The notes under the pieces are model-generated. The model was given only the letters and a program-made list of their open reading frames with translations, was not told the origin of the DNA and did no database searches. A DNA stretch of 64,000 bases from Owenia fusiformis (Eukaryota > Annelida > Polychaeta > Sabellida > Oweniidae): the NCBI GenBank assembly GCA_903813345.2, contig CAIIXF020000008.1:31334867-31398866 (forward strand), given 5' to 3'. Position numbers and translations under genes: made by a program. This document shows, piece by piece, positions 24,030 to 62,688 of the stretch (position 1 is the stretch's first letter; every line of letters starts with the position of its first letter).

Positions 24030-27000
24030 TTATGAAGCATCTGAAAACAGAATATCATTATAATAGATATGCAGCATATACCAGATAGAAAAAATACCCC
24101 AAAAGCTTCTTTTCATCAGTTTTCACTCAGTAGAAACGGAACACCAAGAAACAAGACCTAGTAGTTGGATCATATATAGATACTTAGATTAAGCTCTCTT
24201 GTAATAATACGTTCTGTTTTCATAATATACCTCGTTGGTAAGGGATTGTGTAGATATATCCTTCATCATCTCCAACTAACAAAACTCCTGGACTCTTGAC
24301 AGTGACGGCGACTGGTTTACCCTGCACTGGGATGAATCCCTGAAGTTCGCCAATAAAGTTCAGACGTACTATCCTGTTGTTCGAGTAGTCTGCTATGAAT
24401 ACACCGTAGCTGCTATCTATGCAGACGTCGAGGAGTTTATCAGTCGATCCGCCGTACCTAAAGGTCTCATGGCCCCCCGCTTCAATCATGGACATCTCGA
24501 AAGCGATAACCAGATTATCACTGCGGTCACTTACAATGGTAAGATTTCCCATTGTGGCCAAATAATTAGGAGAAGTAAATGTATGTACAAGTGTTCTATT
24601 ACCATCATTTTTGAGGGAGAATTGATATAAACCACCAGTCGCCGCATCTATGAGCGCCATAAATTCCATTTGCCTTACTAATTCTCCTTGAAGATATTTC
24701 GCATCTAACACAGCAAATTCTTGCACACCAATAAACTGAGTAACAAGAGTTTTCCGATCAGTATCATATAAAACTGCACTACTAGTTGAGTTAAGAAAGA
24801 ACAGCACTTTACCCAGGTTGCTAACACGACTGAAACTTTCGTTCAGATCTATGTAACTATTGAAATCATCATCATAAATACGTGACGACTGGCCGTCTTT
24901 ACGAGTTACCCCAACTTTTCCACTTGGTAAAACAGTGATATCGAGTATTCCTTCTGTGAATAATCTAATCCGTTCAACACCTGCAATTACATGAAATCAA
25001 AAATGAATGTTAAAACTCAACATCAGTTTTAAGTTTTTTGAACCATGAGTTATTTTTCTAATTTTAGTATGTATCTGGTCCAGTTGTTGTACCTGGTCCA
25101 GCTGTTGTACTTGGTCCAGTTGTTATGTCTGGCACAGCTGCTTGGTAGTGCACACAAAATTCGCCTCTGCAACCTTTGGCTAACCACATGAACCCTGTTC
25201 TATAATCGAAGCTCCAGTTGTCGGCCATCGTGCATTTTGTCCTGAAATACATACAGGTTTTGTTTTAGATTCAGCTTACACAAACCTCGCCTCTGCCATC
25301 TTTAGCTACCTTAAACTGGTGCATTGTCCCTGCTCTATTATTCAAGCTCCATTTATTGTTCATTATACAATACAGGATATCCAAAGGGTTAAGTAAAAAT
25401 GCTCTAATTTCCAGATATTCACATGCTGTGTGATAAAATTGCTATTGAGATAGCGTCTCAGGTTATTAATTTATTTTTAAGATTTTCTGTTATTTCCACT
25501 TTTGTAATTAAATGTATGAAAATAAAGAAACAAGATAAACTGACCCTACCTTGATATCTGGGTCTTGAGTGTTACGTCTTGTACAGACATCGATGTCAAG
25601 AATGGCTTGTCATTGAACACAGGACATGTGACGTTCCTCCATCTTTTACTTGCACATGGAAAGCAATACGTTCCTAGAGGTGAAATAACAAAATCAATAA
25701 GAAGAGTCTCCTCTTGTATAAACAAAAACATTTTGGCCACTCATCGTACACTTTCAATACTGTTTTTGGTCAGCCCTCGGCTTATTTGAAAATGAATATG
25801 ATCAGGCTCTGTTAATAGATGTTTTTATTTATATAAAAATTTGACAATTTTCAGGACACATTAAAATATCTGAAATCCTTCAACATTATTAAATTCCAAC
25901 GCTTGTAATTTGAACTTGAATGTAACTAGTGCACCATGACACAAAAAGGCCACCCACATAATGTTGTATAACCTTTTTGTGTGCAGGATTGTTGATTTGA
26001 ACTTCAGAATATTGAAATTATTTCAATTTCAGAGTTACTAGCTCAACTAGATTCACCTGTATGAGAGTTATAAGATGTGAGGTCTATTCTCCTGCAGGCA
26101 CACTAGATTCTACACAAAAATGCCTCCAACCTTTTGCAACATGATTTTGCAAACAAGTTACTGTTTTTGTTTTTATGTAGGTGACGAATACCTCTTTGGT
26201 ATATCCCGTGTTTGGGCAAATTTACGATAATTGATATTTTGAAATTCTGCTACTGTCATAAAGCCTGGAAGGCAGACCCAAGAACCCCTCCTTGAAAGAG
26301 CCATGTGTTCTTTTATTTGAACTCATACACAGTCATAGAAGTAAAGACCATGGCTTTTTGTAACAGTTGTGGACCACCCAGTCACACATCCTGAAGTACT
26401 CTACTCAAACAAATTAAGTGTTGCCTGGATCGGGGATCGAATCCGGGACCTATTGCTTAATTGATACACGCGTTATGCCTGAGCTATGCGAGTGGACTGT
26501 TTTAAAGATTTTATTAATGACAACTATAGCATCTTCTGTTTAATTGAATGGACATCCTTACCAAAAAGCATTAGTATTAAAATAATATGTTACAAAAGGT
26601 GGATGGCATGTAGACAAAAAAGTAATTCAACATTATGTTGTATCGCCCTGTATACAGTGTAGACATGATTTTACTTCAAGAATTTGGATTTTCCATACCT
26701 TCACCACAACGGTCGCCGTTTGTCCCGGATGGGCATAAGCATTTATAATTCCCGCCAAAAGTGTTGATGCACACAGCGTCCTCCCCATGGCAGGGTGCTG
26801 AGGAACATGCGTTTTCTACAAACAGAATTAATATAAGTGCAACTTACGCTAAGCAAGCCGAACTTTACAAATCCTCACAATTCGATGGAGTAGCTACAAA
26901 CGCCGTGTAAACAGAGGAAAGCTTAAATTTCAGAAATAATCATTCCCTGGCGGTGGTATCAAAATATTCTTAGGCTTAATCATATCATATAATGTGTTGT

Positions 27001-30000
27001 TCTCCACTATTTGGATGCAGGGGATTTCAGGAGATCTGTTTAGAGGAGCCAGAAATAATATCATTTTAAAACAAAATTTTATGATAGTCGTAAGCTCTAA
27101 GTAGTACTGCAATATGTTCACAACATTATGCTATACGTCTGATTTGTGATTTAAAATAGGAAGAAACACAAGCAAATGTAGATATCATACAGGTGATATT
27201 CCAGACACATTTTGTACAATTAAATAATGGTTTGTTATGTTTTACACGACTTACCATTCCCAGGCCAGGTACAATTACCAGCATCAGGAACATCTGAAGA
27301 TAAGTTGTATTTATTATAGAAACATTCAAAGATTTGTTTAAAAGGTTTGTTTAAAAAAATTGTTGAACATTCAAAACTGCTTAAAATACTTGGAGACTCT
27401 GAAACAGTCTTTCAGAAATTAAAAGAATAAAATTCATCAAAACTAAAATACAAATCTGCTCCCAAAGCTGGGCAAAAAATTAAACATTATTTTTAATTCA
27501 AACTGGCAGCCCAATAGCAAGTAGGTTTCTTTATTTTATTTCAAAAGTATTTTGAAACCCAAAGATGTGTGAAAATAAGAAAAAACAGTCGATGAAATAA
27601 GTCAATGGAGTGTGTATACATTACCATTGGAACAATAGTTAGGTTCACTACTGCATAAAGTACACACCTTCACTGCAGTTTTTGCCTTGTTTGTTGGGAG
27701 GACAAATGCACTGGTAACCATCATTCCAGGGAATAGAAATACCCGCATTGCAGGGAGACTCTGCAAAACAATCCAATTAATTCTTTAATTTACAGTACCG
27801 ATACCACCTTGGTGGACACCAGGGTGAATACAAAAAAGGTTCTGGTAACATCTAATCTACATCATTTTGCACATTTATAATCCATCTAACTAAAACGTAA
27901 GATTCTCCAGAGTTCGCCATCATTTCAAGCATTGAATATCTTGTACAATAGACCTACATGCCACACACTGTCAAAAGCTTTACGCCTCTTTTATTAAAAA
28001 GAAGTGTGAAGGCACGATGTATATCAGTATTTCCAGCTTGTAAACACGACATTTCTTCTGATGATTTAACATTCATACTTCTATTAACCACGAGCTTCTC
28101 TAATATTTTCAAATATGTTGAAACAAGTGTTGGAAGCGCAATAATACTGTCGCCTGCATACTGAATATGTTCTGTACTTATTCCATCCCAACCCGTAGCT
28201 TTATTCCTCGACAGAGACACAGTGTTTATCAGCTTCTTCAGCTTTGCACAATTCTCGCCTCAGGCATCATTTAGCTGCCTTGCATTGTATCGTACCCAAT
28301 CACCATTGTTAGGATATCTATAAATCTTCCTTTCAGATTCCATGTTCGAAAAGCAGATTTTTCCATTTGCTAGATCAGTTAAATCTTAAGCTAAAATACC
28401 CTGTGTGCAGAGTCTAGTTAAACGAAGACGAAGCTCTCTTTTAAGAAGTGAAGTCAAACGAATGCAAAGGGTAAGCTAAAACAAGAGTATTGTATCGCAC
28501 TTTTTGACACCATATATTATCAAATATCGAATTTTGATCATTTGCTCGCCATTATCTGTCATCTGTTAAAATTGCAGTCCAGGGCATATTATTTAAACCC
28601 TTGTAAGTGTACTCCATATTGCATTTGGAGCACACGCGTCACGAAGACGATCAAAGAACTCGACAATCAACCCGAAAAGGTTTTGATAGTCGATCTCACT
28701 AGAGGCAGCGGATTTTAACGCTCAAACACACCAGAAGTCAGAGGAAGCACAACGGACATTCTCTACAGACACATATTGCTTTCTGTGATAGACTATGACC
28801 TATGTAATCAAAATACTCTTGGTTATGAAAACCAGTTTATATTACAATACAAAGCTTTTGATAATATGAGAAAACATTTTTTGCCTTGACTGATTTTCTA
28901 AAAATGTTACGCATGTACAATTCGAACATGACTCTATTCACGCCTTCTTATATAAACTGTGAACAAAGTCAATATTTCAATTGGGTTATATTCGCAAGCA
29001 ATGCCCCTGATAATACGAGTAATGTGTGACACCATAACGGCGGTCCGTAGTATTGGCGGACCATAATGAATATTCGAAACATGTTGGTGAGTTTTCATAT
29101 TCGAATCGTAATATAGACCTCAGAACAGGGGTAATATCGTCGAATATACCCCCTAGTGCTAGGCACAAAAGTTTTCGAAACGAAGTTTACAGAAAACGTT
29201 TGTACCTAGCCGTGCGGGATGTATTCGACAACATTACCCCTGCTTTTCGGTTGCAGTTTGAGGGCAAACACATTTAGATATGAATAGTACCCGGCGTGCT
29301 TCCCGTAATGCCTTGGTCACATTTGCTCCGATTTTTACTATACGGCGTCAGTCCGATTGAGTATTTTGTTCAAAATTGAATACAATATTGAACAAAACAC
29401 TCAATCGGCCGGGCGCCGGCCGATGGATCGGAGCATATGTGACCCAGGCATTAGCTACCACCTCTGGCTTCAAACCCGGTCGTTGGCCTAAATAACAGGT
29501 TAATCTGCCTATTTAACAGCATGTAACAATGACCTATGTTCCATTTGCCAATTTGACCTAGCGGCTCTATTATAATCGATCCTAGCCACTATTTGCATTC
29601 GCGAATGCAAGCTAAATGCCTCTGTGGTTTGGTACAAGTGTTAAAACTTTAGAAAAACGTGTTTAATTCTGATAATGATGTATTGTATTAATTAAATTAT
29701 GTACAATTTTAGTAAGGCTGGGAAGCAGGTGTGAATACTGTAAATTGTTATGCGTAATACCTAATTCGAACATGACTGTATTCGCGCCTTCTATAAACTG
29801 TAAACAAAGTCAATGCTTCAGCTGGGTTATATTCGAGATCAATAACCCAGTTAATACGTGTAATGTGTGACGTCATAACGGATGGTCGTAGTAATGGCGG
29901 AGCATGATGAATATTCGAAACAATTTGGTGAGTTTTCATGTTCGAATCGTAATATAGACCTCAGAGCGGGGCTAATATCGTCGAATACACCCCTTGGGGC

Positions 30001-30297
30001 TACGCACAAACGCTTTCGAACCCCTCACTCCCTTCGGTCGTTCGGGGTACAGAAAACGTTTGTGCCTACCCTGTGGGGTGTATTCGACGATATAACCCCT
30101 GCTTTTCGGTCTATATTTCTTAAATAATAGGCGCTGAATAAGCTTACGCTATGAGTATGAGTAGATCTGCAATGTGTACAATTTTAGTATTTCAGAAATA
30201 ATATCTCGAGACTTTCATTCTTATTACCTATCTTATTAGCAGTGGTCAATCCTAGCATCGCCAATAACATCATTATAGGATGTAAGGGGATCATCAT
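24030..30297 (-). CDS. Copy 1: secreted protein, signal peptide - EGF - EGF - GCRG module - short linker - beta-propeller
   Basis: Eight minus-strand exons assemble in phase: 30297-30228, 27760-27668, 27293-27255, 26815-26699, 25673-25550, 25241-25093, 24980-24231 and 24040-24030. They encode 450 residues. In order these are a signal peptide (MMLLAMLGLTTA core), an EGF-like exon with four cysteines, a 39-bp microexon (VPDAGNCTWPGN), a six-cysteine EGF, a TYCFPC...GCRGEF module across two exons, a short Thr/Gly/Pro linker, a 250-residue exon resembling an NHL-type propeller (GVFIADYSNNRIVRLN), and a tiny terminal exon (DAS stop). No family name is known to me for the whole protein. The modules imply an extracellular binding or adhesion role, which is inference. 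The linker donor (CCAG|GTACAA) is one of several possible in the repeat and was chosen because it fits phase 1. Confidence 0.7.
24231..24980 (-). CDS. Copy 1 exon: six-bladed beta-propeller-like domain
   Basis: A single 750-bp exon, phase 1 to phase 1 (acceptor AATTGCAG, donor CGAG|GTATAT). About 250 residues fall into repeats of roughly 40. The best is VCIDSSYGVFIADYSNNRIV, followed by GKPVAVTVKSPGVLLVGDDE, the pattern of NHL/SMP-30-type blades. It contains one cysteine, unlike the rest of the protein. It has no counterpart in copy 2. Confidence 0.65.
25093..25241 (-). CDS. Copy 1 exon: second half of cysteine-rich GCRG module and short linker
   Basis: It is phase 2 in (acceptor TATTTCAG) and phase 1 out. 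It encodes TKCTMADNWSFDYRTGFMW, then LAKGCRGEFCVHYQ, a pattern resembling DUF3011 (W..G-type-IWV..GCR.F.V), then ITTGPSTTAGP. Only about two hexapeptide linker units remain, against the long mucin tract in copy 2. Confidence 0.65.
25265..25380 (-). pseudogene. Relic duplicate of the GCRG exon (copy 1)
   Basis: On the minus strand AATAAATGGAGCTTGAATAA, AGAGCAGGG and AGATGGCAGAGGCGAGGTTT parallel the functional exon (ACTGGAGCTTCGATTATAG, AGAACAGGG, AGGTTGCAGAGGCGAATTTT). The acceptor is destroyed and a stop follows. The same relic is at the matching place in copy 2. Confidence 0.65.
25550..25673 (-). CDS. Copy 1 exon: first half of cysteine-rich GCRG module
   Basis: 124 bp, phase 1 in (acceptor ACCTCTAG) and phase 2 out (CAAG|GTAGGG). 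It encodes GTYCFPCASKRWRNVTCPVF, then DVTLKTQIS, ending next to the conserved VTLKTQISRTKC junction. Confidence 0.7.
26422..26497 (-). mobile_element. tRNA-derived SINE head
   Basis: On the minus strand an A-box-like TAGCTCAGGC (26486-26477) and a B-box GGATTCGATCC (26444-26434) have tRNA-like spacing. The putative acceptor arms do not pair (GTCCACT against CAGGCAA), so this is read as a SINE promoter head rather than a functional tRNA gene. Confidence 0.55.
26699..26815 (-). CDS. Copy 1 exon: EGF-like domain 2
   Basis: 117 bp, phase 1 to phase 1 (acceptor TTTGTAG, donor GAAG|GTATGG). It encodes NACSSAPCHGEDAVCINTFG, then YKCLCPSGTNGDRCGE, with six cysteines in EGF spacing. The copy 2 exon differs at a few residues only. 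Confidence 0.85.
27255..27293 (-). CDS. Copy 1 39-bp microexon
   Basis: Acceptor TATCTTCAG and donor AATG|GTAAGT. It encodes VPDAGNCTWPGN. The same microexon with one amino-acid change (K for N) occurs in copy 2 at 45239-45277. That conservation supports it being real. Confidence 0.75.
27668..27760 (-). CDS. Copy 1 exon: EGF-like domain 1 (short)
   Basis: 93 bp, phase 1 to phase 1 (acceptor TTTTGCAG, donor GAAG|GTGTGT). It encodes SPCNAGISIPWNDGYQCICP, then NKQGKNCSE, with four cysteines, so it lacks the usual first disulfide pair. Confidence 0.8.
27920..28345 (-). pseudogene. Non-LTR retrotransposon reverse transcriptase fragment
   Basis: Minus-strand reading gives NKATGWDGISTEHIQYAG, the fingers motif of non-LTR reverse transcriptases. 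In a different frame further on it gives KAFDSVWHVGLLYK, the catalytic motif A with its Asp. The frame shift and missing intervening sequence show that it is dead. It lies in the first intron of copy 1. Confidence 0.75.
28918..29256. repeat. Long repeat, unit A of a direct pair
   Basis: It begins ATTCGAACATGACTCTATTC and is about 80-85% similar by eye to 29762-30108. Each unit contains an internal inverted repeat around TCGAATA...TATTCGAC. Confidence 0.8.
29306..29453. mobile_element. Palindromic MITE, GGCGCC-rich family
   Basis: The ends TAATGCCTTGGTCACATTTG and ATATGTGACCCAGGCATTA mirror each other, and the interior is nearly palindromic (TTTTGTTCAAAATTGAA against TTGAACAAAACACTC). A longer relative lies at 56697-58357. 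Confidence 0.85.
29762..30108. repeat. Long repeat, unit B of a direct pair
   Basis: It matches 28918-29256 in the same orientation. The two units are separated by about 500 bp that contains the MITE at 29306-29453. Unit B ends 120 bp from the signal-peptide exon of copy 1. Confidence 0.8.
30228..30297 (-). CDS. Copy 1 signal-peptide exon
   Basis: It starts at ATGATG and encodes MMIPLHPIMMLLAMLGLTTA, then NKI, a classic signal peptide with a small residue before the likely cleavage site. The donor is ATAG|GTAATA, phase 1. It aligns with exons at 52166-52100 and 62625-62688. Confidence 0.75.
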
Positions 30298-35503: not shown

Positions 35504-38500
35504 CTAGCTCACTGTAACATCTGAAAATAGAATGTAATTATGCATTGATATAGTACTATCTACCAACCAAAACCCGAGAATCTAAAAAATATGTACTGTT
35601 GAAGAACCATAATTTTTATTACTTGGTGGCTTTAGCATTGATACAGCTCTTGTGATTCCTGTGAGCAAATCGCTTGAAGTTTTTGAAGTTGTGGAGAATT
35701 TTAGCAAGGGGCTATTTTAATTCAATAATTATTTCTAAAAAGTCCCATTAAATAGTATACACGATTATTATTTTAGATCAAATATAGAGTTCTTGAGTAG
35801 CGTATCGTTCGTATTTAGGAAACCTATGATATAGTTTAGAGTAGGAATCGGAGTAAGGATTCTAAAGGTCACCGCCGTCAGTGGTGAGGTTTTTGCCGAA
35901 ATATTCAGCACATTCTTTCTTCATGGAGACCTTCAAACGCGTATCACTCGATAACTATTGTGCCGATTTGAATTAGGTTTCAGTTCTGAAATATTCAGGA
36001 AGTCTGCCATCGTTTATGTTAAACCTTGAGTTTCGAGTTTTAAGGAGGCCCTAAATCAAGCTCCAAGTGAGCACCTCTCCTCTCTCTATTCAAGTGTGCA
36101 TAAAGAGGAGGGGTGCCCACTTGGAGCATGTTTGCAATGAACAATTTTGACTCAATAAGCAGATTAACATCAAACGTTTAAAACAAAATTAACGTTGAAT
36201 GATCTAAATAATTCTGAGAATATGCATCATTGACCGAGTGAATAAACTGCCTTTTCGATTCCCTGTATTTTCAGAATTGTGTTATCGCAACTAAAACATA
36301 TATTTTCCCCACAAACCCTAATTAAATACCGCGGTCAGTATTATAAAAAGTTGAGTTATTCAGTTTCAAACGGTACACGCCCTTTATATTTATATTAAAC
36401 TACTATTTAATCTCTGACGAAATTGAAACTCGATCAACTCGAGCTCTTCTGAGAAAACCAGGATTTAGGCAGGGGTGGATTGATTTAATAAGGGGGCAAT
36501 TGACTTTAAACCTGCATATTATATGGAGATTTAAAGTCAATCGTAAGACTAGGGGTTCTTACACAGGACATTAAAATGCCTTTAAGATGAAAGGTATAAC
36601 TTTAGGATATAAATATGATCTTAGAGTTGCTTACCATCCTGACAGCTCACAACTACCCCAGGCTCGACCACAAAACCACCATCTTTAATCACCATCCAAA
36701 TAGTAGTACCATCGGTTGGATCAACAGCAGGATTATATGTGAAGGCGTAAGCATTAAAATTTAAATTAGTAGGGTCTGGTCCAATTACCCACATTCCTGT
36801 TGATGACAAATAGTAAAGGTAGAACGGGAAAAAAGAGTGTTTGTAAATCGGTCTATTCCCAGCCTCTTGGTCATTATTCTTCTCATAAAAACCAAAATTC
36901 GCCATGACAGGTAGCAGGAGCTTACGACAAGATCCACCTTAAAATAATTAAGATAAATTATGTCGGACTGATGGATGTCCTGGTGTTGAAGTAATCCGTA
37001 TTATATGAAATTTCCTCAGAGTCCTAGTTAATAGTTTAGGAACCAATCTATTAAAATACTAGTATGATATAAAATACCCAATAAGATTTTCTTCAAATGA
37101 TTGTTTATTTGTGTATTCGTTTGTCTGCCTGCAATGCAATTGGCGCTTGGCACCAATGTTATAATTGTAAAGATTTCCATATGTTATAATGAAAGAAAAA
37201 CAAAAAATCGTTTGTCTAACCAGTGCTCCCTTGACTGTCTGAATTGTGGTGTTACCTGTAGTTGTATTGCTAGAAATAGTGATTCCATCCATCGCTGTCC
37301 AACCAGTAGAGGTAACCCATCTAAATTGTGGCTTTGTTATATCCTGAGGTAGAAGGGATGTTGAAGGTATCCACATGTTAATTTGGTCATTACCAATAGC
37401 CGCGCCAAACCCCCAACGTCCACTTAATAGGTAGTACATATAATATTTTCCTGATTCGTGAATATATACTGGTCTAGAATTGTAATATTCTCCGTGTATA
37501 CTGTAAAATCCTAGGAGTTGGGTCATGTTTTGTGAAATGGACGATGTGATCACACCCCCGATGTATAACGTTGCACTAGGGACCATGTCATCTGAATATA
37601 GTAATATAAGTTATTGAATGATTTGAAGTGTAATAAGGATATATTCTGCTCGAGAAATTCCTATTGGAACGAGACGAAGTCAAGTGCCAATACAGAATAT
37701 CGAGAGCAGAATATATCCTGTATTGCACTTCAAATTAAATCATTCTATAACGTTTTTATCGTGTGATCTTCTGTATTGCTACTGAGAATGTACCAATATT
37801 TTCTGTATTGCGACGGAGATGATCAATGGGGACAATCTCAGAAGCAATACAGATTGGTACAGCACAAGAACTAAAGCAATTAAAAGGCTTCATTCTACAG
37901 ATCATACGATTAACACGAATATGCAGTTATAGTTAGTAATCCATGCCTCGCTAACGTGTTAAAAACCAAACGTATCGGTCTCAGCATAGAGTGAGGCAAA
38001 AATGTATCCCCAAAAGTGTAAATAACAACATGGATTTAAACCTTGTACAATGTTCTTTCTTTCTATTAAGTCTCATTGGTCTATCTCAAATGACAACTCT
38101 CTTATTGTTATTTTACAAAACATCCTCAAAATGCCGGTCTCATCTCTGGAGGAATGGTTCTAATCATCCTTCTTATCTTATCTTATTGTTTCAACTCCCT
38201 GATGCTTCTCCAAAGGTGTAGCCATGAATAATAAGGGGTTTAAATATTACATGGCCTTTGGGATTCGCTTTCATAACGAATGCGGGGGGGGGGGGGTTAA
38301 GCCCAAGTGGATGGGGGTGGGTCGCAAGACAGAAATAGTTTCAACAAACCAATCAATTTACAGAATATAGTATATGCACACTCATCAAATAACTAGGTTG
38401 CGTAGATGTGTGATTCATAGTTCACACAAAAACAATCATCTCTGAGACTGGGGTTAGTTTCCAGCCTTTGGTTTGTTGATCTTCCAGAAAAGGGGGTTGC

Positions 38501-41500
38501 TACTGGCTGGATGTTTGTTTTATAAATAAGGGAGTTCAAGTAGTCTACAAATTCCCTCTCACTATGCCCATACATCTAAAGTTGTAAATATGAACAATAT
38601 CTTTGAAATATGGCTCCAAAGATAAACGTTTGGGGATTCATCTATATCGGGTGATTTTTCAACATTTTATGCATGTCTTTTAAAATGGCCATAACATCGT
38701 GACCATTAAAAACAGACCATTGAAACTTACCCCCCTATCACACCAAACTAGTACTTACCCGGTCTTGACAACTACGAAAACGGGTTTAAACTGATTAAGA
38801 ACGTATTTAAGACTGCTTATGAACGAGTTAGCAAAAAATGTAGCTATCACACCAAACAAGTTGCCACTGCGTTCTTCAAAACTGGTTTTAAATTGTGTGC
38901 GAACGAAATGGACGTGGCTGCAACTTTCTAAGGTCTATTTACGAACTTCATGAACGTTCTCAGACGGGAAGGTGATTTTGGAATTTTGAATCGATTCAAA
39001 ATTCGAGGACGACCATACCGTTCAGGAATCAGGTCATGATGACCTGCTAGACTAAGGAACGCGTTATACGACGTTGCACACCGAACTGGTGCGACCTGAA
39101 CGAACTGCGAATGAGATGGACGTATTGAAGACTGTTTATGAACGAAGTAGCTAATTATTTAGGCATAAGAACTAGTTTGGTGTGATAGGGGGGTTACATT
39201 TTTTGGCTCTCCCTATATAAATTCTCAGTTGTTGTACCTTGTCCGATTGTTGTTCCTTGGCCAGTTGTTGTATCTGGTCCAGTTGTTGTATCTGGTCCAG
39301 TTGTTGTACCTGGTCCAGTTGTTGTAACTGGCCCAGTTGTTGTATCTGGTCCAGTTGTTATGCCTTGTCCAGTTGTTGTACCTGGTCCAGTTGTTGTATC
39401 TGGTCCAGTTGTTGTACCTAGTCCAGATGTTGTACTTTGTCCAGTTGTTATATCTGGTCCAGTTGTTGTACCTGGTCCAGTTGTTGTACTAGTACTTGGT
39501 CCAGTTGTTGAACCTTGTCCAATTGTTGTGCCTGGTCCAGTTGTTGCAAGTAGCCCAGTTGTTGTATCTGGTCCAGTTGTTGTACCTGGTCCAGTTGTTG
39601 TACTAGTACTTGGTCCAGTTGTTGTACTTTGTCCAGTTGTTGTTAGAAGCTCAGTTGTTGTATCTGGTCCAATTGTTGTACCTGGTCCAGTTGTTGTACT
39701 TTGTCCAGTTGTTATATCTGGTCCAGTTATTGTGCCTGGTCTAGTTGTTGCAAGTAGCCCAGTTGTTGTTCCTGGTCCAGTTGTTGTACTAGTACTTGGT
39801 CCAGTTGTTGTACTTTGTCCAGTTGTTGTAAGTAGCCCAGTTGTTGTACCTGGTCCAGTTGTTGTACTTTGTCCAGTTGCTATATCTGGTCCAGTTGTTG
39901 TACCTGGTCCAGTTGTTGTACTAGTACTTGGTCCAGTTGTTGTGCCTTGTCCAATTGTTGTACCTGGTCCAGTTGTTGTATCTGGTCCAGTTGTTGTATC
40001 TAGTTCAGTTTTTGTACCTGGTCCAGTTGTTATAACTGGCGCAGTTGTTGTACTTGGTCCAGTTATTGTGACTAGCCCAGTTGTTGTATCTGGTCCCGTT
40101 GTTGTACCTAGTCCTGTTGTTGTAACTGGCCCAGTTGTTGTATCTGGTCCAGTTGTTGTATCTGGTCCAGTTGTTGTATCTGGTCCAGTTGTTGTACCTG
40201 GTCCAGTTGTTGTACTTTGTCCAGTTGTTATATCTGGTCCAGTTGTTGTACCTGGTCCAGTTGTTGTACTAGTACTTGGTCCAGTTGTTGTGCCTTGTCC
40301 AATTGTTGTATCTGGTCCAGTTGTTGTACCTGGTCCAGTTGTTATAACTGGTCCAGTTGTTGTATCTGGTCCAGTTGTTGTTCCTCGTCCAGTTGTTGTA
40401 CCTGGTCCAGTTGTTGTACCTTGTACAGTTGTTATGTCTGGCACAGCTTCTTGGTAGTGCACACAAAATTCGCCCCTGCAACCTTTGGCTACCCACATGA
40501 ACCCTGTTCTAAAATCGAAGCTCCAGTTGTTGTCCATCGTGCATTTTGTCCTGAAATACATACAGGTTTTAGATTCAGCTTACACAAACCAAACCTCGCC
40601 TCTGCCATCTTTAGCTACCTTAAACTGGTGCATTGTCCCTGCTCTATTATTCAAGCTCTATTTATTGTTCATTATACAATACAGGTTATCCAAACAGTAA
40701 AGTAAAAATGCTCTTATTTCCAGAGATTCACATGTTGTGTGATGAAATTGCTATTGAGATATCGTCTCAAACTGATAAGAGTATGGTTGTTATTATAATG
40801 AGAGTCTGGGATATGTGCACAAAATCAAGTTTTAAAACTCTCGTGCATCATCTACGGAACGATATCAGATTCTACACGAAGTGAGGGAATATTGAACGGG
40901 GTAGAGGTGTGGTATAATCATGAAAAAGAAAATAAGGTTATTAATTTTTTATGATTTTCTGTTATTTCCACTTTTGCAATTGAATATATAGAAATAAAGA
41001 AACAAGATGACCTGACCCTACCTTGATATCTGGGTCTTGAGTGTTACGTCTTGCACAGACATGGATGTCAAGAATGGCTTGTCGTCGAACACAGGACATG
41101 TGACATTCCTCCGTCTTTTACTTGCACACGGGAAGCAGTACGTTCCTAGTGGTGAAATAAATAAATCAATGGGAAAGTTTGGAGTCTCCTCTTGTATAAA
41201 CAAAAACATTTTAGTGTTTTGCATCGATTTATTCAAAAATGTATTTGATCATCAGGCTTTTTAGATAGACGGTATCTTTACAATTACTTTTCACTTCTCC
41301 ATATTTAATTCTGAACGTAAAATTAACATAAAATAAATGAACAATTTTTAAAACACAGTAAAGATTATTCAAAATCTTAAAAAATGATGAAAGTGAGTCA
41401 CATATTTGAGTTTCACTGCTTGTAATTTGAATGTTCTCTTGGAAGTAGAATAAGTCCCCAACCTACTCCAAGAAAAATGAAGTGTCGTTGTCCGGTACTG

Positions 41501-44500: not shown

Positions 44501-47500
44501 GTTATTAGAAAATTTGTCAATGAATTCAAATATGTTATTAAAAAGAAAAGTTAGTCTCTTAAAATCCCATAAAACGAGGATAAGCGAGATTTCAATCAGA
44601 GCTATTAAGAATTAACTCATCTATTACAAAACAATGGCAAAAATTTAAGCAAGATTAAACCACACTTAAGTAGCAAAACAACAGAATGAACTATGTTTTA
44701 TTTTTAAGAATAGCCAGCTATAACAAAGAGAAATGCATTATTTTTCTATTGTTTCCAAAGAATGTACATTTGACAAGCTATCCAAACCAGTACGTGTTGC
44801 ACAAAAGACGATTGACTGTCACATGCAGTGTACTAAAGCTGAACTAATTACCCCCTATTCACTCATTCAATAGTTGAATAGTAAACACAAGAGAAGTCAA
44901 ATTTCAATCCGCTACATGCGGTGCACTGAAGCTGAACTAATTACATTCACTATTTCTCAACACTCTTACCTTTAAAGGCAATACAAAATAAATCAAGTTT
45001 TTATCAAGTTGGATCATGGGCCACTCAGCTTTCATAAGAGTCTGGTTTAAGTCAGATAAACTATGTAATGATTGTTAGGGGAATTAATAGCCTCGGCCTA
45101 GCGGCCTCAGCTATTATATATATTCCTCCTAAAAACCAAGCCTCATAGTTTATCTCTAACAGAAATACAAACAAATATAAATGTCATGCAACATTATGTT
45201 GCAATTAAATGAGGTTTATTATGTTTTATATAACTTACCATTCCCAGGCCAGGTACATTTGCCAGCATCAGGAACATCTGAAGATAAGTTGTAATTATAT
45301 GTAGAATCATTTAAAACGTGTTTAAGGTGCCATGGAAGTTAATAGGAAATGACAAAACAAAAAGAGACAAAACCATGCTGGATTTTGAAATTTTTTTTGA
45401 ACCAAGATAACAGAATTCTGTTTGGACCTCCAGTCAGTTTAACTAGTTCCACATATCATTTACAAAACCGGGAACACAATGGAAATGGTCAAAATGACCA
45501 TAATTATGATGAAATAACCTTTTTAGCCCTTTGAAAATGTGACTGAAAAATAACTAGGAGTAGGTGCTCAGTAAAGGTCACTGAACAGAATCTTTTGACT
45601 TTTTCATAAAATGTGCCCAATATATTGCTCTAAATGACACAATTTTAAAAGATTTGATATCATTCTTAGAAAAAGAATAAAAAAACTGAATTTAAAATCA
45701 ATCTATTTTCCTTTTTACTACAGCCATTATTGTTTCCGACAATTTTTTAAAATTTATATTATCACACATTTTTGGGTTTCAAAATATTTTTAATAATGTT
45801 AAAGCGCCGTCATTTCTGTTTACTTTTCCAAAAATATCACGGTCTCCTTAGTAATGTTACGCTCTGATAAGCTCTGATTTCCCGACTTGTCACGGTACCT
45901 CACGCTTTGATCCCGCTCCGACCAGGCTTTGTTACGCTTGAAATCACGGTTTGATAAGCTTTGATAAGCATTATTACGCTTTGGTGCGATTATGACGCTT
46001 TAAATCAGGCTCTGATACGATTGCCAAGCTCTGTTGTGCATTGTTACGCTCTGTTAAGCTCTGTCACGCATTGGAAAATGTAGAGATCGCCGATTTCATG
46101 CCGCTTTTGATCCAATGAATATACAAAGATGCAGTAGATCCATAAAACCATTGCATCTTTGACGCGAGAACACGATGGCAGAACAACAAGATCCAGAAAT
46201 TCCAGATGGACCAGACCATGACCTATCTGAAGAAGATATGATGTTTGTCGCACGGCGTGAAAGATCGTGATAGAGCGTGAGGAAGCTTGTCAAGCCTAAC
46301 AAAGCGTTTCAATCCTTGATTAATGTGTCTCAATTCGTTGGAAAGCTTGAGAGTCCTTCATGAAAGCGTAACAAAGAGTGTCAGATAATAATGAAAGCGT
46401 ATGACCTCGTGTCAGATCTTCATGCCAGATCGTAGCAAAGCTTGAGACATCTTAACGAAGCGTGCCAAGTGATACCAGACCGTGAAGAGACTGGGGTCCC
46501 CGCTTTGAATCAAGTCCTGTTAAGCTTTCCTACGCTTTGGGTCAAGCTTTGCTGAGCTTTGTTACGGTTTGTTAAGCTTTGATACACTCTCGGTGCTTTA
46601 ATCAATACGTAACAGAGCGCCCAACTTTTTTAAACGGTTTAAAATTTTTTGGCGCTCTTGCCGAATATCCCGCTTTACTCCGAGCTTTTCTACGACATAT
46701 TACGACCCCGACGTTTTAATCAAGCTTTGTTACGCTTTGGTGCCGCTTTACAAGCCGCTTTAAAACGCCGTTCTTGTGAACGTAGCTTTATGAAGTGATT
46801 GATTGCGTCATCATTTATTGCGCACGTCTATACGTCCATAAGTGTGATATTCTTACGTATAGACGACGATTTATAAGAATATCACACTTATGGACGTATA
46901 GGGCTGCGCAATAAATGATGACGTAACCAAACGCTTCATAAGTTATATGTTATAAACATGCTATAAGCGAGTTACGAAATATCTCGCTTTGTTGGCGCTT
47001 TAAAGCGGCGTGCAAAGGCGCTTTAAAGCGCCGTTAAATGCCGTTGGCGTGAACTTAGCTTAAAGGCCCCCTCACATATGAACGAATCCACCAAACGCAG
47101 CCTGACGCATGTGGTAAATTAGTCATTTCTGGCGAATATTGAGCGAAAATGTTTAAAAATATGTTACATAATAGAAAACATAACGAATAGTAATGTAAGG
47201 TAACTATTTGTTGCGAATGTTTTACGAAGTGTGACGAATTACTACTTTTCTTCGCTAAGATGCGTTGCGTCTCTTAAACAACCTTTGACATCCCCTTCAG
47301 CGAGTAATAACGCATACATGCGAAATAAAGCGTAATTATGCGCATTCTTCCGAATCTGAACGAAGCCTTACGAAAAGCAGGAGGCGTCAGCGATTCCCGT
47401 CAGCGATTAACAACGCATACATGCGAACCACAGCGCAATTGTGCGCATGCTTCCGGATCTAAACGAACCTTTGCGAAAAGTGTAAGGGTCAATTTACTTG

Positions 47501-50500: not shown

Positions 50501-52166
50501 ATTCATGCAAAATTCATGCAGTTATTATTTCTTAACTTATAGGCCAGTCTACTCAGGGCCAAGATGACTTATCTAGGGGTTCTTTACGTCCACCACAAGC
50601 TATCCCTATAGCCTCTCCTCTGACCCAGGCATTGCTGTCGTCTGGAATGGATATACTACTTCAGGAGAAGCCTACACAGGAACATGTGAACATACCTGCA
50701 ATGCCCAGCAACCTACCTGTCCTGGGTGAAGAAGGGCTCAGTATGGATGTCTCTCTTGTTGGTAGCACCCGTCCCACATCTGCTCCAGTTCTGCCTTCTG
50801 CTTCGGATGCTTTTTCCACATCCGCACCACGTAGTAAGTCAAGTGCTTAGAGACTTAGTGACGACATGTTCACTGCTCTTGTTTTTATTTTGTAAATTTT
50901 GTTGTTTACATCTAAATTTTTTGTTATAAAGATATTTTCTAAATAAAGTTTATTCTCTTAGTATAATTATTTGTCTTGTTAAAAGCAAGATTAAGTATTT
51001 GTAATGTTGGTCATGTTTTCGAAAGGAATATTCAAAAACGTTGTTGCTGATTTGGATGTACATTTTTGCAACACCGAGCTGATCATATATGCCAAATTGG
51101 CGCCGTCTCTCTGGATTCAACCATTGTCTCCTCCAGATGCCACGTTCTCTGGCTCCCCTTCTCCGCCTAAAACGGCCTCTGATGAACTCATGAATGTTAA
51201 GTTGCTGCGTTAAAACTTCTTGCTGGGCCATAGCAGCCATATACTGCAGCCTGCAGCCTCAGTCGATCTGTGTCTTCCATGACAAAAGAATTATTTGATT
51301 TAATTTGGTATTCTCTCAATTATTCAGCTTAACGTAGATCCAATTCGTAAGTATTCGTTCCACTGCGTACAAGGTTGCAAACTGCCGCAATGGTTCGTAA
51401 TGGGATCGTCGTCAGTCGCTTGATATGCAAATTATGGGGATACGACCTTATCCCCAGCGACCTGTAACGTCACTTGACGAAGCCAATGCGAAGGTTAACC
51501 GATCGTTAACGCATTGAAACGAATTTCAACGAATGACACACGAAACTTTTATTCGCTGCAATTTTTTGAACATGTTCAAAATTTTCCGACGAAAAAGACT
51601 AATTTCAACCGAGGTAAACGCTGACAAACGCATCTATGCGAACACTGCGACGTACTGTCACGAACTCGTACTAATGAGAACGAATTTGACTAATTTCCTA
51701 TTTGCCACTATACGCAAGTTGACGTAAAGGGGTTTTCGTTCATATGTGAGGGGGGCTTTAGTGCTTACTTTCACTGCAGTTTTTGCCTTGTTTGTTCGGG
51801 GGACAAATGCACTGGTAGCCACCGTTCCAGGGAATAGAAAAACCAGTATTGCATGGAGACCCTGCAAAACAATACCAAGCAATTGGTTCTTGTAATCTAC
51901 TAAAGCTAAGTTCACACCGACGGCGCTTTGATGGTGCTTTAAAGCGGCGTGCAAAGCCCCTTTGTACGCCGCATTAAAGCGCCATCAAAGCGCCGTTGGT
52001 GTGAACTTAGCTAAATAACGATGTGCGTTTCGCTTTAAATGATCAGTAATCTTAATTAAAAATTGAGAATTGATATCTTGAGCATTTTATTCTTATTACC
52101 TATCTTATCTGCAGCGGTCAATCCGAGCATCACTAATAACATTGCTATGGGATGTAAGGGGGCCAT
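35504..52166 (-). CDS. Copy 2: secreted protein, signal peptide - EGF - EGF - GCRG module - mucin-like tract - two YxYYL domains
   Basis: Nine minus-strand exons join in phase: 52166-52100, 51861-51769, 45277-45239, 44092-43976, 41145-41022, 40550-39238, 37591-37256, 36937-36635 and 35520-35504, giving 802 residues. The first five exons match copy 1 closely. The sixth begins with the same GCRG half-module but expands into about 400 residues of Thr/Gly/Pro hexapeptide repeat (TTTGPG), expected to be heavily O-glycosylated. Two phase 1-1 exons then encode related domains (GEYYNSRPVYIHESGKYYMY and NRPIYKHSFFPFYLYYLSS), followed by a terminal exon (VTVS stop) homologous to that of copy 1. The copy 1 propeller is absent. 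The mucin donor is assigned by phase (CAAG|GTACAA) and cannot be fixed uniquely within the repeat. Confidence 0.7.
36060..36127. repeat. Short hairpin
   Basis: GCTCCAAGTGAGCACCTCTC is mirrored by AGGAGGGGTGCCCACTTGGA, with a loop of about 20 bp, in the last intron of copy 2. Confidence 0.75.
36635..36937 (-). CDS. Copy 2 exon: YxYYL domain 2
   Basis: 303 bp, phase 1 to phase 1 (acceptor ATTTTAAG, donor GATG|GTAAGC). It encodes NRPIYKHSFFPFYLYYLSST, then GMWVIGPD and TIWMVIKDGG, with cysteines near both ends. Domains with a 'RPxY...YYLYY...W.IGP' pattern recur in secreted proteins of marine invertebrates. I do not know an official family name. Confidence 0.7.
37256..37591 (-). CDS. Copy 2 exon: YxYYL domain 1
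   Basis: 336 bp, phase 1 to phase 1 (acceptor ATATTCAG, donor ACAG|GTAACA). It encodes MVPSATLYIGGVITSS, then SRPVYIHESGKYYMYYL and GRWGFGAAIGND. It shares the RP.Y.H...Y.YYL...W..G framework with domain 2, so the pair arose by exon duplication. Confidence 0.7.
37611..37750. mobile_element. 140-bp MITE next to copy 2 exon
   Basis: TTATTGAATGATTTGAAGTG at the left and the matching AATTAAATCATTCTATAA at the right form inverted ends, with ATATATTCTGCTCGA mirrored inside. It starts about 20 bp from the acceptor of YxYYL domain 1. Confidence 0.75.
37760..38725. other. Intronic stretch with homopolymer
   Basis: No credible exon was seen. A run of about 14 G lies at 38283-38296. Confidence 0.5.
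38729..39193. mobile_element. MITE with TTA target duplication (Harbinger-like), copy A
   Basis: The ends are CCCCCCTATCACACCAAACT and AGTTTGGTGTGATAGGGGGG, flanked on both sides by TTA, the PIF/Harbinger-type target length. The interior is dense in ACGTTC/GAACG motifs. The right TTA, read on the minus strand, is the stop codon reached if the mucin frame of copy 2 is read through its donor. Confidence 0.8.
39238..40550 (-). CDS. Copy 2 exon: GCRG half-module and mucin-like repeat tract
   Basis: It is phase 2 in (acceptor TATTTCAG) and phase 1 out. After TGFMWVAKGCRGEFCVHYQ it consists of 18-bp units encoding variants of TTTGPG, TTTGPD and TTTGQS. Five higher-order repeats begin PSTSTTTGPGTTTG. 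The tract is almost free of charge and cysteine. The opposite strand is also open for long stretches (PVVVPGPVVV) because of the repeat and is not a gene. Confidence 0.75.
40566..40690 (-). pseudogene. Relic duplicate of the GCRG exon (copy 2)
   Basis: It matches the relic at 25265-25380 nearly base for base and resembles the neighbouring functional exon (AATGGAGC, AGAGCAGGG, GATGGCAGAGGCGAGG on the minus strand). It has a lost acceptor and a stop. Confidence 0.65.
41022..41145 (-). CDS. Copy 2 exon: first half of GCRG module
   Basis: 124 bp, phase 1 in and phase 2 out. It encodes GTYCFPCASKRRRNVTCPVF, then DDKPFLTSMSVQD, differing from copy 1 at two residues. Confidence 0.75.
41700..42310. 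repeat. Tandem repeat of about 210 bp, three copies
   Basis: AACCATCTTCCCCAAGGTCG begins at about 41733, 41950 and 42158. Each unit also contains GATGCTACCGCTATCTCATC. It lies in the intron between the EGF2 and GCRG exons of copy 2. Confidence 0.9.
42595..42800. repeat. Degenerate tandem repeat of about 34 bp, six copies
   Basis: Units begin GAGTGAGATT and contain GAAAAGAGGAGGAGTTATCC-like sequence with increasing divergence. Confidence 0.75.
43015..43814. mobile_element. MITE with TTA target duplication (Harbinger-like), copy B, about 800 bp
   Basis: The start CCCCCCTATCACACCAAACT and the end AGTTTGGTGTGATAGTAGGG are flanked by TTA on both sides. It belongs to the same family as 38729-39193 but is longer. 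The interior is filled with CGTTC/GAACG motifs. Confidence 0.8.
43856..43930. repeat. Strong hairpin near EGF2 donor
   Basis: CATAAATGTGGGGTT and TTTTTGATATTTA are mirrored by TAAATATCAAAAA and AACCCCACATTTATG. The arms are about 35 bp, roughly 45 bp from the donor of the EGF2 exon of copy 2. Confidence 0.85.
43976..44092 (-). CDS. Copy 2 exon: EGF-like domain 2
   Basis: 117 bp, phase 1 to phase 1 (acceptor TTTGTAG, donor GAAG|GTATGG). It encodes NACSSTPCHGEDVVCINTFG, then CLCPPGTNGDRCGE, six cysteines with EGF spacing. Confidence 0.85.
45239..45277 (-). CDS. Copy 2 39-bp microexon
   Basis: Acceptor TATCTTCAG and donor AATG|GTAAGT. It encodes VPDAGKCTWPGN, nearly identical to copy 1. Confidence 0.75.
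45800..47060. mobile_element. Mosaic of DNA-transposon ends with GTTACGCTTTGATAAGCT motif arrays
   Basis: Motifs of ACGCTTTGATAAGC type fill 45850-46080 and 46500-46760. Their complements (AAAGCGTAACAAAG, AAGCTTGAGAC) fill 46250-46480. AAAGCGCC blocks and the end GTGAACTTAGCT at 47060 match the terminus of the small MITE at 51904-52012. It contains the hairpin at 46789-46941. No coding region. Confidence 0.6.
46789..46941. repeat. Near-perfect hairpin, arms about 60 bp
   Basis: GCGTCATCATTTATTGCGCA and CATAAGTGTGATATTCTTA are mirrored by TAAGAATATCACACTTATG and TGCGCAATAAATGATGACG around a short loop. Confidence 0.9.
47575..50850 (+). CDS. MADF domain protein with BESS-like motif, transposon-borne
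   Basis: Seven exons join in phase: 47575-47702, 47833-47904, 48210-48421, 48810-48979, 49460-49887, 50110-50339 and 50543-50850, encoding 515 residues. After a basic start (MAKLKRKPTAGEQ), the MADF domain spans exons 3 and 4 (IEKELVEFYKMNPSLWDIRL, then NIVGWWKGIRDTYTRLSLKK and YKQKWVLQNLSFL). A BESS-like helix follows (YLTQEMRQMSKRRFKSFRRE), then a Ser/Pro/Gln-rich tail. MADF domains bind DNA and are related to Myb/SANT. PIF/Harbinger elements encode such a protein beside their transposase, which suggests the origin. Exon 2 has phase 2 at both ends and could be a cassette. AATAAA follows at 50942-50947. All frames are intact, so it may be recently active or co-opted. Confidence 0.75.
48210..48421 (+). 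CDS. MADF gene exon 3: N-terminal half of MADF
   Basis: Acceptor CTTTCAG, donor TCGG|GTAAAA. It encodes the first two MADF helices, including the NPSLWD signature. Confidence 0.75.
48810..48979 (+). CDS. MADF gene exon 4: C-terminal half of MADF
   Basis: Acceptor TTTGCAG, donor AGT|GTGAGT. It encodes VGWWKGIRDTYTRLSLKKSG and YKQKWVLQNLSFLSNRP, the WxxLRDxYxR and W.....LxFL signatures of MADF. Confidence 0.8.
51769..51861 (-). CDS. Copy 2 exon: EGF-like domain 1 (short)
   Basis: 93 bp, phase 1 to phase 1 (acceptor TTTTGCAG, donor GAAA|GTAAGC). It encodes SPCNTGFSIPWNGGYQCICP, then NKQGKNCSE. The TIR element begins only about eight bases into the intron behind the donor. Confidence 0.8.
51904..52012. 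mobile_element. 109-bp palindromic MITE
   Basis: AGCTAAGTTCACACCGACGG and CCGTTGGTGTGAACTTAGCT form the ends, and the interior is an almost perfect palindrome of AAAGCGCC blocks. It lies between the signal-peptide and EGF1 exons of copy 2. Confidence 0.9.
52100..52166 (-). CDS. Copy 2 signal-peptide exon
   Basis: It encodes MAPLHPIAMLLVMLGLTAAD, then KI, phase 1 out (donor ATAG|GTAATA). The acceptor TTTATAG lies 18 bp upstream of the ATG. Confidence 0.75.
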
Positions 52167-52887: not shown

Positions 52888-52979
52888 TTAATAGATCATA
52901 TTTCAATGTTCTATAGCAAACTAACTCCCAACAACTTGCCACTAACTCCAGAAACCACTTACTCAACATACAATATACC

Positions 52980-54735: not shown

Positions 54736-54739
54736 GTGC

Positions 54740-56640: not shown

Positions 56641-56641
56641 T

Positions 56642-58767: not shown

Positions 58768-59102
58768 TTATTAAGAAATAAGAAAAGCTCATATTTCATC
58801 AAAAGGTGAAACATTAGCATAATTTCCCGAACTACAGTATTGAAATTAGATAACAAAATAAAGATTTAAAAATTAACAAGCTTTCCCACTCCATCAAATG
58901 TAAACTTCCGATTGCCAAAACCTAGAGAGGGGAGTGTCAATTTGTGTAATAACGTACTGTGCTAATCATCATATGTCCCCAATGGGTCAGTGCTCACTCC
59001 ATGAAATTTATGACTACTTTTTCATAATACAATAAAGATCCCAAGCAAATCATTTGAGAAGTGAATCGTTTACTTTTATACTCTATACATGTATGTACTT
59101 AC

Positions 59103-59310: not shown

Positions 59311-59414
59311 TTTCGTCCTCCTAGCCAAGTCCATCGGATCGTTGAATTAGACAAATCGATTATTGAGAGGACTTCAAAAAACAAATTTTATTTATCAGTA
59401 CAACAGAAGTAATA

Positions 59415-59495
59415 TTTCTCTTTTTACACAATCTACTAAGCTGCACCGTATATCTATCAATGATATTTCACAAGTCGAGTATCTTAAAGCCCCCA
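59415..59495 (-). promoter_or_regulatory. Conserved upstream block of copy 2
   Basis: Minus-strand ACTCGAC, GTGAAATATCATTGATAG, CGGTGCAGC and TAGATTGTGTAA parallel the block upstream of copy 1. The following GATAAATAAAATT could serve as a TATA-like element. Confidence 0.5.
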
Positions 59496-59499
59496 TGTA

Positions 59500-61600: not shown

Positions 61601-61614
61601 GGGGTGTAAAACAA

Positions 61615-61805
61615 CCTTTCCATGGTTCTGTGATTTTGGCGATGTTCCTTCGGTCGGAGCTATACGTTGGTCAACTATTTATTCAACTTTGGGTCTCTTA
61701 TTGATACAGTCGCTGAGGCCTCGCTGAGGAGTACATTAAATCATCAAAACGGGATACTGAATAAGAAACTGGGTCAGAATCATCAAATACGTTGTTCAAC
61801 TATAT
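61615..61805 (+). other. Copy 3 leader exon (probably 5' UTR)
   Basis: It ends at TATAT|GTAAGTACATG and matches the other leaders (TGATTTTGGCGATGTTCCTT, TATTTATTCAACTTTGGGTC, CATCAAAACGGGATACTGAA). The upstream frame ends at TGA (CCTCGCTGA) before the donor. Confidence 0.6.
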
Positions 61806-62624
61806 GTAAGTACATGTATCGAGAGTATTTTATTAAGAAATAAAATAAAAGGTTCACTGCTTCAGTGATTTGCAAGGGAATTTTATTCTATTATTACTCT
61901 AAAATATAGTCATAAATTTCATGCAGTGATTAGAAACCCATTTTGGCAACAGGAAGTCTTAAACCGGAAGTGTTAAAGCCTTTTAATGTTTGAATCTTTA
62001 TTTTGATGATTTTTTTGAATCGTCAAACATAAACTGGTTTGAGTAGTATATGGGCGATTCAGAAGGCGAGTTCGTTTGCCAAAATATGGAGGGGTTGTAT
62101 AACCTGTTGCTAACACTGTTTTATGAAATCGCTTGAGCAACCCGCTGTCATTTAGCTTAAATGTCCAAAGTAGAAATTGTTGAACCATCTAAATATAATT
62201 TGTAATGACTAAGAAAAGTTGTTCGCGGATTTTTTTTTATTTCGATGCACATATTTTGTTACTAAATCACTGATTTTTATTTGTAGTACATCTTGAAATA
62301 TGAACAAATACAATAGACAAAAACCAGTTGAACTTGATATTGTTGATTATTCGGTTCCGAGTTCCATTGATTTCAATGGGTTTTCGCAATACCCTCGTGT
62401 TCATTCTTAAAAAGTGCAAAGCTTCAGTTCTAGAAAAGCTTTTACCTTGATTTTGTTTTATTTGAAAAATAATAGATTGTTATTGTAGCAATTAAGTATT
62501 AAGCATTATAGCACCAGAACATTTTATTTAGAAACAAAATTAACAATTAATTACAACATGTCAAAAATTATATTGTTGCCTTTCCAGGTTTTTGATAATT
62601 CATAGCTTAAGGAGAGATCGTAAG

Positions 62625-62688
62625 ATGGCCTTCTTCCATCCCATAGTTATGTTATTGGTGATGCTTGGATTGACCACTGCTAAGAAAG
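62625..62688 (+). CDS. Copy 3 signal-peptide exon (rest of gene outside window)
   Basis: It encodes MAFFHPIVMLLVMLGLTTAK, then K, phase 1 out (AAAG|GTGAAT). The acceptor TTCATAG and the bases up to the ATG match copies 1 and 2. The following EGF exon is not in the remaining 1.3 kb and should lie beyond the right edge. Confidence 0.7.

Follow-up and report, generated by a model that had tools for sequence, protein, structure and literature searches.

A predicted family of secreted proteins in Owenia fusiformis with a conserved DUF3011 stem and alternative C-terminal heads

We analyzed a 64,000-nucleotide stretch of the genome of the annelid Owenia fusiformis (assembly GCA_903813345.2; 498 Mb, 525 contigs), which we call the window and which covers positions 31334867–31398866 of contig C8 (CAIIXF020000008.1). 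The window holds two genes and the start of a third from a family of predicted secreted proteins, each of which combines a conserved N-terminal ‘stem’ with one of several alternative C-terminal ‘heads’. The stem consists of a signal peptide (called by eye in all genes), a degenerate EGF domain, a microexon, a second EGF domain and a DUF3011 lectin domain, often followed by a Thr-rich stalk.

Copy 1 lies on the minus strand. Its first exon, E1 (window positions 30228–30297), contains the start codon and signal peptide and ends in phase 1. Three phase 1-1 exons follow: E2 (27668–27760), a degenerate four-cysteine EGF; E3 (27255–27293), a 39-nucleotide microexon (DVPDAGNCTWPGN); and E4 (26699–26815), an EGF domain (Pfam EGF, E = 2.6e-5). 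DUF3011 is interrupted by a phase-2 intron, with its first half in E5 (25550–25673, phase 1-2) and its second half, which includes the GCRG motif, in E6 (25093–25241, phase 2-1) together with a short Thr-rich tail. The copy 1 head is a single 750-nucleotide NHL-like beta-propeller exon (24231–24980), either phase 1-1 or terminal. A weak candidate terminal exon (‘DAS*’) lies at 24030–24040.

Copy 2, also on the minus strand, has the same series of stem exons: E1 with the signal peptide (52100–52166), E2 (51769–51861), the E3 microexon (45239–45277), the E4 EGF (43976–44092) and the first half of DUF3011 in E5 (41022–41145). E6 (39238–40550) combines the second half of DUF3011 with a long Thr/Gly/Pro repeat, a mucin-like TTGP tract whose 3′ end is uncertain because the repeat unit itself holds G|GTACAAC sites. 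The head consists of two phase 1-1 exons that encode YxYYL domains, Ya (37256–37591, 336 nucleotides) and Yb (36635–36937, 303 nucleotides). A candidate terminal exon (‘DVTVS*’, 35504–35520) lies in a region that is 81% identical to copy 3 over 133 nucleotides (E = 1.5e-29). Copy 3 runs in the opposite direction. Its signal-peptide exon E1 (62625–62688, plus strand) ends in phase 1 within the window, and its exons from E2 on lie beyond it, starting at C8:31403437.

The internal exon boundaries of copies 1 and 2 have AG/GT sites, and with these both chains can be read. DUF3011 scores 28.4 bits in copy 1 (E = 1.9e-6) and 41.6 bits in E5+E6 of copy 2 (E = 1.7e-10), against a Pfam cut-off of 25. 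Self-comparison of the window gives 86–92% DNA identity between copies 1 and 2 in the E2–E6 pieces and 76% in the signal-peptide region; the signal-peptide regions of copies 1–3 match one another at 76–79%. The original prediction, made from the window alone, described the common exons of copies 1 and 2 as nearly residue-identical, and 144 of 158 residues over E2–E6 are indeed the same. Its descriptions of the single phase 1-1 propeller exon in copy 1, the giant mucin tract and two YxYYL exons in copy 2 and the reversed leader of copy 3 also agree with our reading.

Two further claims stand in part. Swapped exons were said to be phase 1-1 throughout, which is correct for copies 1 and 2 and does not extend to E5 and E6 of the stem. 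Copies 1 and 2 were also said to share a terminal exon. Short DNA similarities do connect the three copies (copy 1 vs. 2, 82% over 34 nucleotides and 76% over 49, E = 1e-5 and 5e-5; copy 1 vs. 3, 83% over 36 nucleotides, E = 4e-6). However, the propeller exon of copy 1 (‘QRGIL*’) may itself be the last one, with no terminal exon used, as its two propeller relatives on contig C3 both stop immediately after the same ‘TIPY’ motif.

Genome searches returned 77 matches to E5+E6, 109 to E2–E4, 147 to the propeller, 81 to Ya and 6 to the E1 region; part of the DNA is masked and these counts are lower bounds. They place copies 1–3 in an array of seven genes on C8. The minus strand carries copies 1 and 2; the other five, copies 3–7, are plus-strand genes that stretch from C8:31397455 to about 31531000. 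The E1 region of copy 1 matches copies 2–5 and 7, and the E1-region search gave no match in copy 6. All seven copies have the E3 microexon, E2–E5 flanked by AG and GT, and the acceptor of E6. In copies 3–7, two YxYYL domains (Y1 and Y2) continue the frame of the stalk and are followed by Y3, Ya and Yb; copy 5 Yb is incomplete, cut at the end of the DNA piece that was read. A search of the window for Y1–Y3 found nothing convincing besides Ya and Yb of copy 2. DUF3011, stalk and first YxYYL domains share one frame of 462–632 residues in copies 3, 5, 6 and 7. In copy 4, an in-frame TAG within Y1 breaks the stalk–YxYYL frame; this copy may be a pseudogene, or the stop may be a polymorphism or an assembly error.

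Several observations implicate duplication and recombination in the history of the array. First, a 5.4-kb stretch is 99.5% alike in copies 3 and 5, and copies 4 and 7 are 98.8% alike over the E2–E4 piece and 92% alike over 4 kb from E5 onward. Upstream of copy 3, similarity to copy 5 starts at window position 59001, about 3.6 kb before E1, and a genome search with E1 of copy 2 found no second copy 2; these observations favor tandem duplication as the likely origin of both pairs. Unpurged haplotypes are disfavored as their origin, without proof.

Second, copy 6 is a clear recombinant of neighboring copies. We compared it at 517 sites that distinguish the pair 3/5 from the pair 4/7, each pair being uniform at the site, with stalk repeats excluded. 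In the stretch that starts with E5 and runs to the stalk, copy 6 follows copies 3/5 at 131 of 144 such sites; past the stalk it follows copies 4/7 at 288 of 315. Y1 is still 3/5-like (17 of 22 sites), which places the switch after Y1 ends and before the later part of Y2; the E2–E4 region is mixed (30 and 38 of 70 sites). The sites form 63 runs, against a mean of 237 after shuffling, and none of 5000 shuffles was as low. As judged from these alignments, array paralogues recombine.

We identified at least 39 stem loci in the genome by pairing E5+E6 and E2–E4 matches by proximity. They are distributed over seven contigs of 31–40 Mb (C8, 7 loci; C3, 2; C4, 4; C9, 5; C10, 4; C11, 12; C12, 4) and one small contig (C119, 1). 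The original description of three copies that diversify locally was therefore too narrow in both respects. Some pairings are far apart: E4 is separated from E5 by 18 kb at C11b, 25 kb at C10d and 16 kb at C12c, and at C3B 40 kb separate E5 from E6. Four DUF3011 matches stand outside the count: C11:1033438, one on C179, and C8:29671558 (E = 6e-17) and C10:35525655 (E = 6e-7), the last two DUF3011-type with an internal stop each.

Splice sites were surveyed at 32 loci outside C8, with in-frame shifts of up to 15 nucleotides allowed. E4 has AG and GT at all 29 loci read, E5 has both sites at 25 of the 31 loci searched, and an E6 acceptor could be located at 30 of 31. The E5 misses are C9a–e and C12d (four without a match, two spurious matches without proper sites), and the piece for C11k, the E6 miss, contains a run of N. 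Short and long forms were distinguished at 35 examined loci and, from their exon chains, in copies 1 and 2: 15 loci end after DUF3011, 22 continue and two (C4d and C11k) are unclassed. The short forms stop 16–27 residues past the DUF3011 tryptophan. C11j and C11l stop at 24–26 residues, yet we class them as long because a phase-1 donor (weak at C11j) precedes the stop and a head lies downstream. A phase-1 donor is present in the final 90 nucleotides of the E6 frame at 12 of the 15 long forms outside C8; C11a has a candidate donor, and C11d and C10a have no phase-1 donor in that interval.

Related exons also occur in other arrangements. At C4:15950400–15956500, an E4 EGF of the family type precedes further EGFs and a 200-residue open frame with no family assigned; the genome search with E5+E6 gave no DUF3011 match there. 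Partial E2 copies occur in tandem at C4:1083881–1085494, C10:35098698–35100398 and C11:1168159–1168762, and L041, L043 and L044 have a second E2. We considered Dscam-like alternative E2 exons on C4, C10 and C11 and rejected them, as few of the copies have AG, GT and the full cysteine pattern.

Heads could be assigned at 19 of the 22 long forms and are of six kinds. YxYYL heads are found at six loci (C8 copies 2–7), fibrinogen-like heads at five (C11c, e, f, g and j), propellers at three (C8 copy 1, C3A and C3B), EGF heads at three (C11b, d and l), a CAP head at one (C11a) and an ShK head at one (C11h). Fibrinogen_C (E = 2e-45) was detected by Pfam scan at two of its five loci, and all five appear in the genome-wide list of Fibrinogen_C matches. 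The other Pfam-supported heads are ShK (E = 9e-7), EGF (FXa_inhibition/EGF, E = 2.5e-14; EGF_CA, E = 2.6e-8) and CAP (E = 1.7e-8, for a piece joined by hand from two exons). Phase-1 acceptors are readable at all five fibrinogen-like heads, CAP, ShK and both C3 propellers; acceptors of other phases are also present near some heads. The EGF heads come from a search limited to phase 1-1 exons, and their phase is no independent evidence. On these gene models, a conserved N-terminal stem is followed by alternative C-terminal heads in matching phase 1.

The copy 1 propeller falls below the Pfam cut-off for NHL (E = 0.012) and, among PDB sequences, matches designed Pizza propellers (E down to 2.7e-19), PknD (1.9e-6) and TRIM3 (0.026). 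After copy 1 itself, the best of the 147 genomic matches (E = 9e-42 and 2e-38; next, 9e-15) are both on C3, downstream of DUF3011 stem exons on the same strand, at distances of 4.7 kb (C3A) and 15 kb (C3B). Because the two best non-self matches both follow DUF3011 stems, the association of stem and propeller is unlikely to be due to chance. Many other matches lie in open frames of about 620–660 residues, which are putative TRIM-type genes. No convincing match to YxYYL domains came from Pfam (best E = 0.0029, in one of 14 members), NCBIfam or PDB sequences (best E = 0.95). Predicted structures were unusable (mean pLDDT 42.5 for the propeller, 44.2 for the copy 2 YxYYL pair).

Three long forms (C4a, C10a and C11i) have no assigned head. 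The C4a exon had been read as WSC, but its Pfam scan returned no family to confirm this. C10a (C10:37100000–37112000) has two DUF3011 units rather than one, followed by a 1050-residue open frame with no convincing Pfam family (best E = 0.015). Across the genome, 150 Fibrinogen_C matches were scored from 317 candidates and five are on a DUF3011 stem; clusters occur, for example, on C11 (6.28–6.40 and 7.08–7.13 Mb) and C12 (29.84–29.97 and 33.50–33.68 Mb).

The distribution of heads on a tree of stems points to head exchange. The tree has 31 rows, the seven C8 copies and 24 from among the 32 loci elsewhere; a row was dropped if it lacked E4, E5 and E6 or had no label, and the labels predate the finding of the EGF head at C11b and the short form at C10d. 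Counted on strongly supported branches, the fibrinogen and EGF labels must each have changed two or more times. The ten labels together need 14 changes, where the minimum possible is 9 and the shuffled mean 21. Propeller and YxYYL labels are not forced above one change, and 9 of 26 inner branches are open. The copy 1 stem groups, with moderate support, with copies 2, 4 and 7 and near the C3 propeller genes. Either copy 1 may have gained its propeller or its neighbors may have gained YxYYL.

Outside the array, the best match to Ya (62%) is on C7. At C7:17402500–17415500, exons for astacin (E = 9.6e-25), EGF_2 (1e-5) and a sub-threshold CUB (0.0016) are followed by a YxYYL cassette of five domains in the order of C8 copies 3–7. 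No convincing DUF3011 exon was found within 9.3 kb upstream, and none of the 77 genome-wide E5+E6 matches is on C7. One YxYYL head cassette thus appears, from the predicted exons, to stand after two unrelated N-termini. The tree and the cassette show, at the level of gene models, that heads have changed between genes in evolution.

This layout resembles the snail VIgL family, which comprises FREPs, CREPs and GREPs with immunoglobulin superfamily (IgSF) and lectin domains, as a review summarizes it (PMC12074976). VIgL proteins are likewise described there as secreted, with a shared N-terminal region and alternative lectin-type C-terminal heads that include fibrinogen-like ones, and FREP diversity is attributed to gene conversion and point mutation (PMC12074976). 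The copy 6 mosaic points to the same kind of recombinational process, without implying membership. VIgL N-termini are IgSF, whereas the Owenia stem consists of EGF and DUF3011, often with a mucin-like stalk, and carries four head kinds besides fibrinogen-like and EGF; Fibrinogen_C is on five of the 22 long forms and the remaining assigned heads are of other kinds. A Pfam scan of the copy 1 protein, the only one scanned whole, found no Ig family up to E = 10, and we therefore do not regard the stem family as a VIgL member. By analogy, we read it as working like VIgL on an unrelated stem.

A known animal lectin with DUF3011 is AKL, an egg lectin of the sea hare Aplysia kurodai that binds galacturonic acid; its authors propose DUF3011 as its carbohydrate-recognition domain (PMC5484111). 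AKL consists of three repeated domains, with no EGF or other head mentioned in the part of the account available, whereas the Owenia proteins have one DUF3011 unit (two at C10a) with EGFs and heads. A rotifer lectin survey sought DUF3011 lectins and found none (PMC8878817). The copy 1 head also resembles the propellers of TRIM-NHL proteins, but it sits on a signal peptide and an EGF/DUF3011 stem, and the Pfam scan of copy 1 detected neither RING nor B-box. Literature searches on DUF3011 with fibrinogen or lectin listed no paper on a stem-plus-heads architecture, which does not establish that none is in print.

We conclude that these genes probably encode a secreted, modular, lectin-type recognition family with a constant stem and interchangeable heads. 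The original prediction of a constant N-terminal scaffold with interchangeable ends is borne out by the six assigned head kinds, the conserved splice sites, paralogue recombination and the higher rate of amino-acid change that several heads show relative to stems, and the modules of the further copies are favorable to it. We infer a role in recognition rather than in structural adhesion. In the mechanism that we propose, stem exons would be spliced to a downstream head. The DUF3011 stem, often on a mucin-like stalk, may bind glycan, as suggested by the galacturonic acid binding of the sea hare lectin (PMC5484111), while the head would contact a second, varying target. The proteins could then act against microbes or parasites as soluble or mucus-borne recognition molecules of the opsonin or agglutinin type. 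In the germ line, new specificities would come from the exchange of heads through phase-1 introns, from unequal crossing-over within tandem arrays and from point changes in the heads.

Evolutionary rates differ between stems and several heads. A first codon-model run fixed kappa at 2 in the null, and a grid repeat covered the stem, Y3, Ya, Yb and the fibrinogen-like heads; results for Y1, Y2 and C11 E5+E6 are from fixed kappa only. The ratio of nonsynonymous to synonymous change (omega) is 0.31 in the C8 stem, with omega = 1 rejected (p = 1e-7), and C11 E5+E6 also rejects omega = 1 (p = 0.004; pairwise 0.05–0.98). Ya has an omega of 1.22 (p = 0.31 against 1), and 0.3 fits about 25 log-likelihood units worse. 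Yb and Y3 are best at 0.7 on the grid, neither significantly different from 1; Y2 ranges from 0.40 to 1.39 pairwise (p = 0.20). C11 fibrinogen-like heads range from 0.60 to 0.86 pairwise, with a grid optimum of 1.0. In the C3 pair, omega is 1.39 for the propeller and 0.17 for E5+E6. By these models, stems are under purifying selection and Y3, Ya, Yb, propeller and fibrinogen-like heads lie near a neutral ratio. In direct comparisons of nonsynonymous and synonymous differences, heads exceeded stems in the C3 pair (p = 0.0005), copies 3/6 (p = 0.0016) and copies 2/7 (p = 0.0005), and odds ratios were above 2.9 in six of six pairs (range 2.95–5.25). At the protein level, the propeller and the outer YxYYL heads evolve faster than their own stems; fibrinogen-like heads differ in the same direction without significance.

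Several points weigh against the recognition reading. Positive selection on heads is not established: no head has omega significantly above 1, dN > dS in the C3 propeller reaches p = 0.08, and one of 76 pairwise Fisher tests falls below 0.05, uncorrected. Y1 is constrained (pairwise omega 0.19–0.52 in divergent pairs; under a fixed kappa of 2, omega = 1 is rejected, p = 0.01), and thus not every head part varies. The six head–stem pairs were chosen by hand, those from C8 cover Ya+Yb only, and three of the six gave p = 0.12, 0.24 and 0.28. Recombination biases estimates of this type, and relaxed constraint on heads would also fit the rates. In addition, 15 stem loci bear no head, the exon chains of all stem genes were read from genomic DNA alone, and several of the implied introns are long and largely unread (40 and 15 kb at C3B, about 9.5 kb to the EGF at C11b).

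The same genes might instead encode structural secretions, such as adhesive, tube or mucus parts, in which lectin, EGF, mucin and Tyr-rich modules would give strength and heads would drift under weak constraint. Thr-rich mucin-like stalks of varying length, Tyr-rich YxYYL heads and rates compatible with neutrality are in keeping with such a role. Six unrelated head kinds on one stem would be unlike the repetitive make-up of a glue, and nonsynonymous change in the fibrinogen-like heads is highest at codons 131–220, where synonymous change is raised too; we consider a structural role unlikely. Gamete or egg-coat recognition, with heads that diverge by reproductive conflict in fertilization or egg protection, seems slightly less probable still: fast heads on slow stems would fit it as well, and the DUF3011 lectin of known function comes from a sea hare egg mass (PMC5484111), but at least 39 loci with many unrelated heads would exceed what gamete families usually need. 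Least probable is an annotation artefact, in which the stem would by itself make up a full, short secreted DUF3011 protein and the heads would be independent neighboring genes, for although 15 loci do end right after DUF3011 and the chains come from genomic DNA, the phase-1 donors at the ends of E6 frames, the matching heads behind matching stems (six of seven C8 copies, both C3 genes and four closely related C11 genes) and the uninterrupted DUF3011–stalk–YxYYL frames of copies 3, 5, 6 and 7 argue otherwise.

Within the recognition reading, a shared stem with differing, often fast-changing heads looks like a natural route to new recognition proteins. More tentatively, and with somewhat less than even confidence, we suggest a lineage-specific and previously undescribed recognition system: a DUF3011 stem, a library of heads traded via phase-1 introns, recombination within arrays, constant and variable regions under different rules, and a cassette shared with an astacin gene. 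If the exon chains are correct, the family would add to the snail VIgL layout a second case, unrelated to the first and with more kinds of head, and would preserve a readable record of head movement between genes. It would also make testable whether phase-1 exon shuffling still actively yields new recognition proteins in an animal that lacks antibodies, and would give an animal context to the little-studied DUF3011 domain.

Two further features of the window were observed. Inverted repeat arms of about 390 bp (38778–39167 and 43108–43497, 92% identical) possibly belong to a mobile element. A long open frame on the plus strand (5336–5947), with a 3′ end that is weakly PH-like (PH_9, E = 0.001, below cut-off), is probably an exon of an unrelated neighboring gene.

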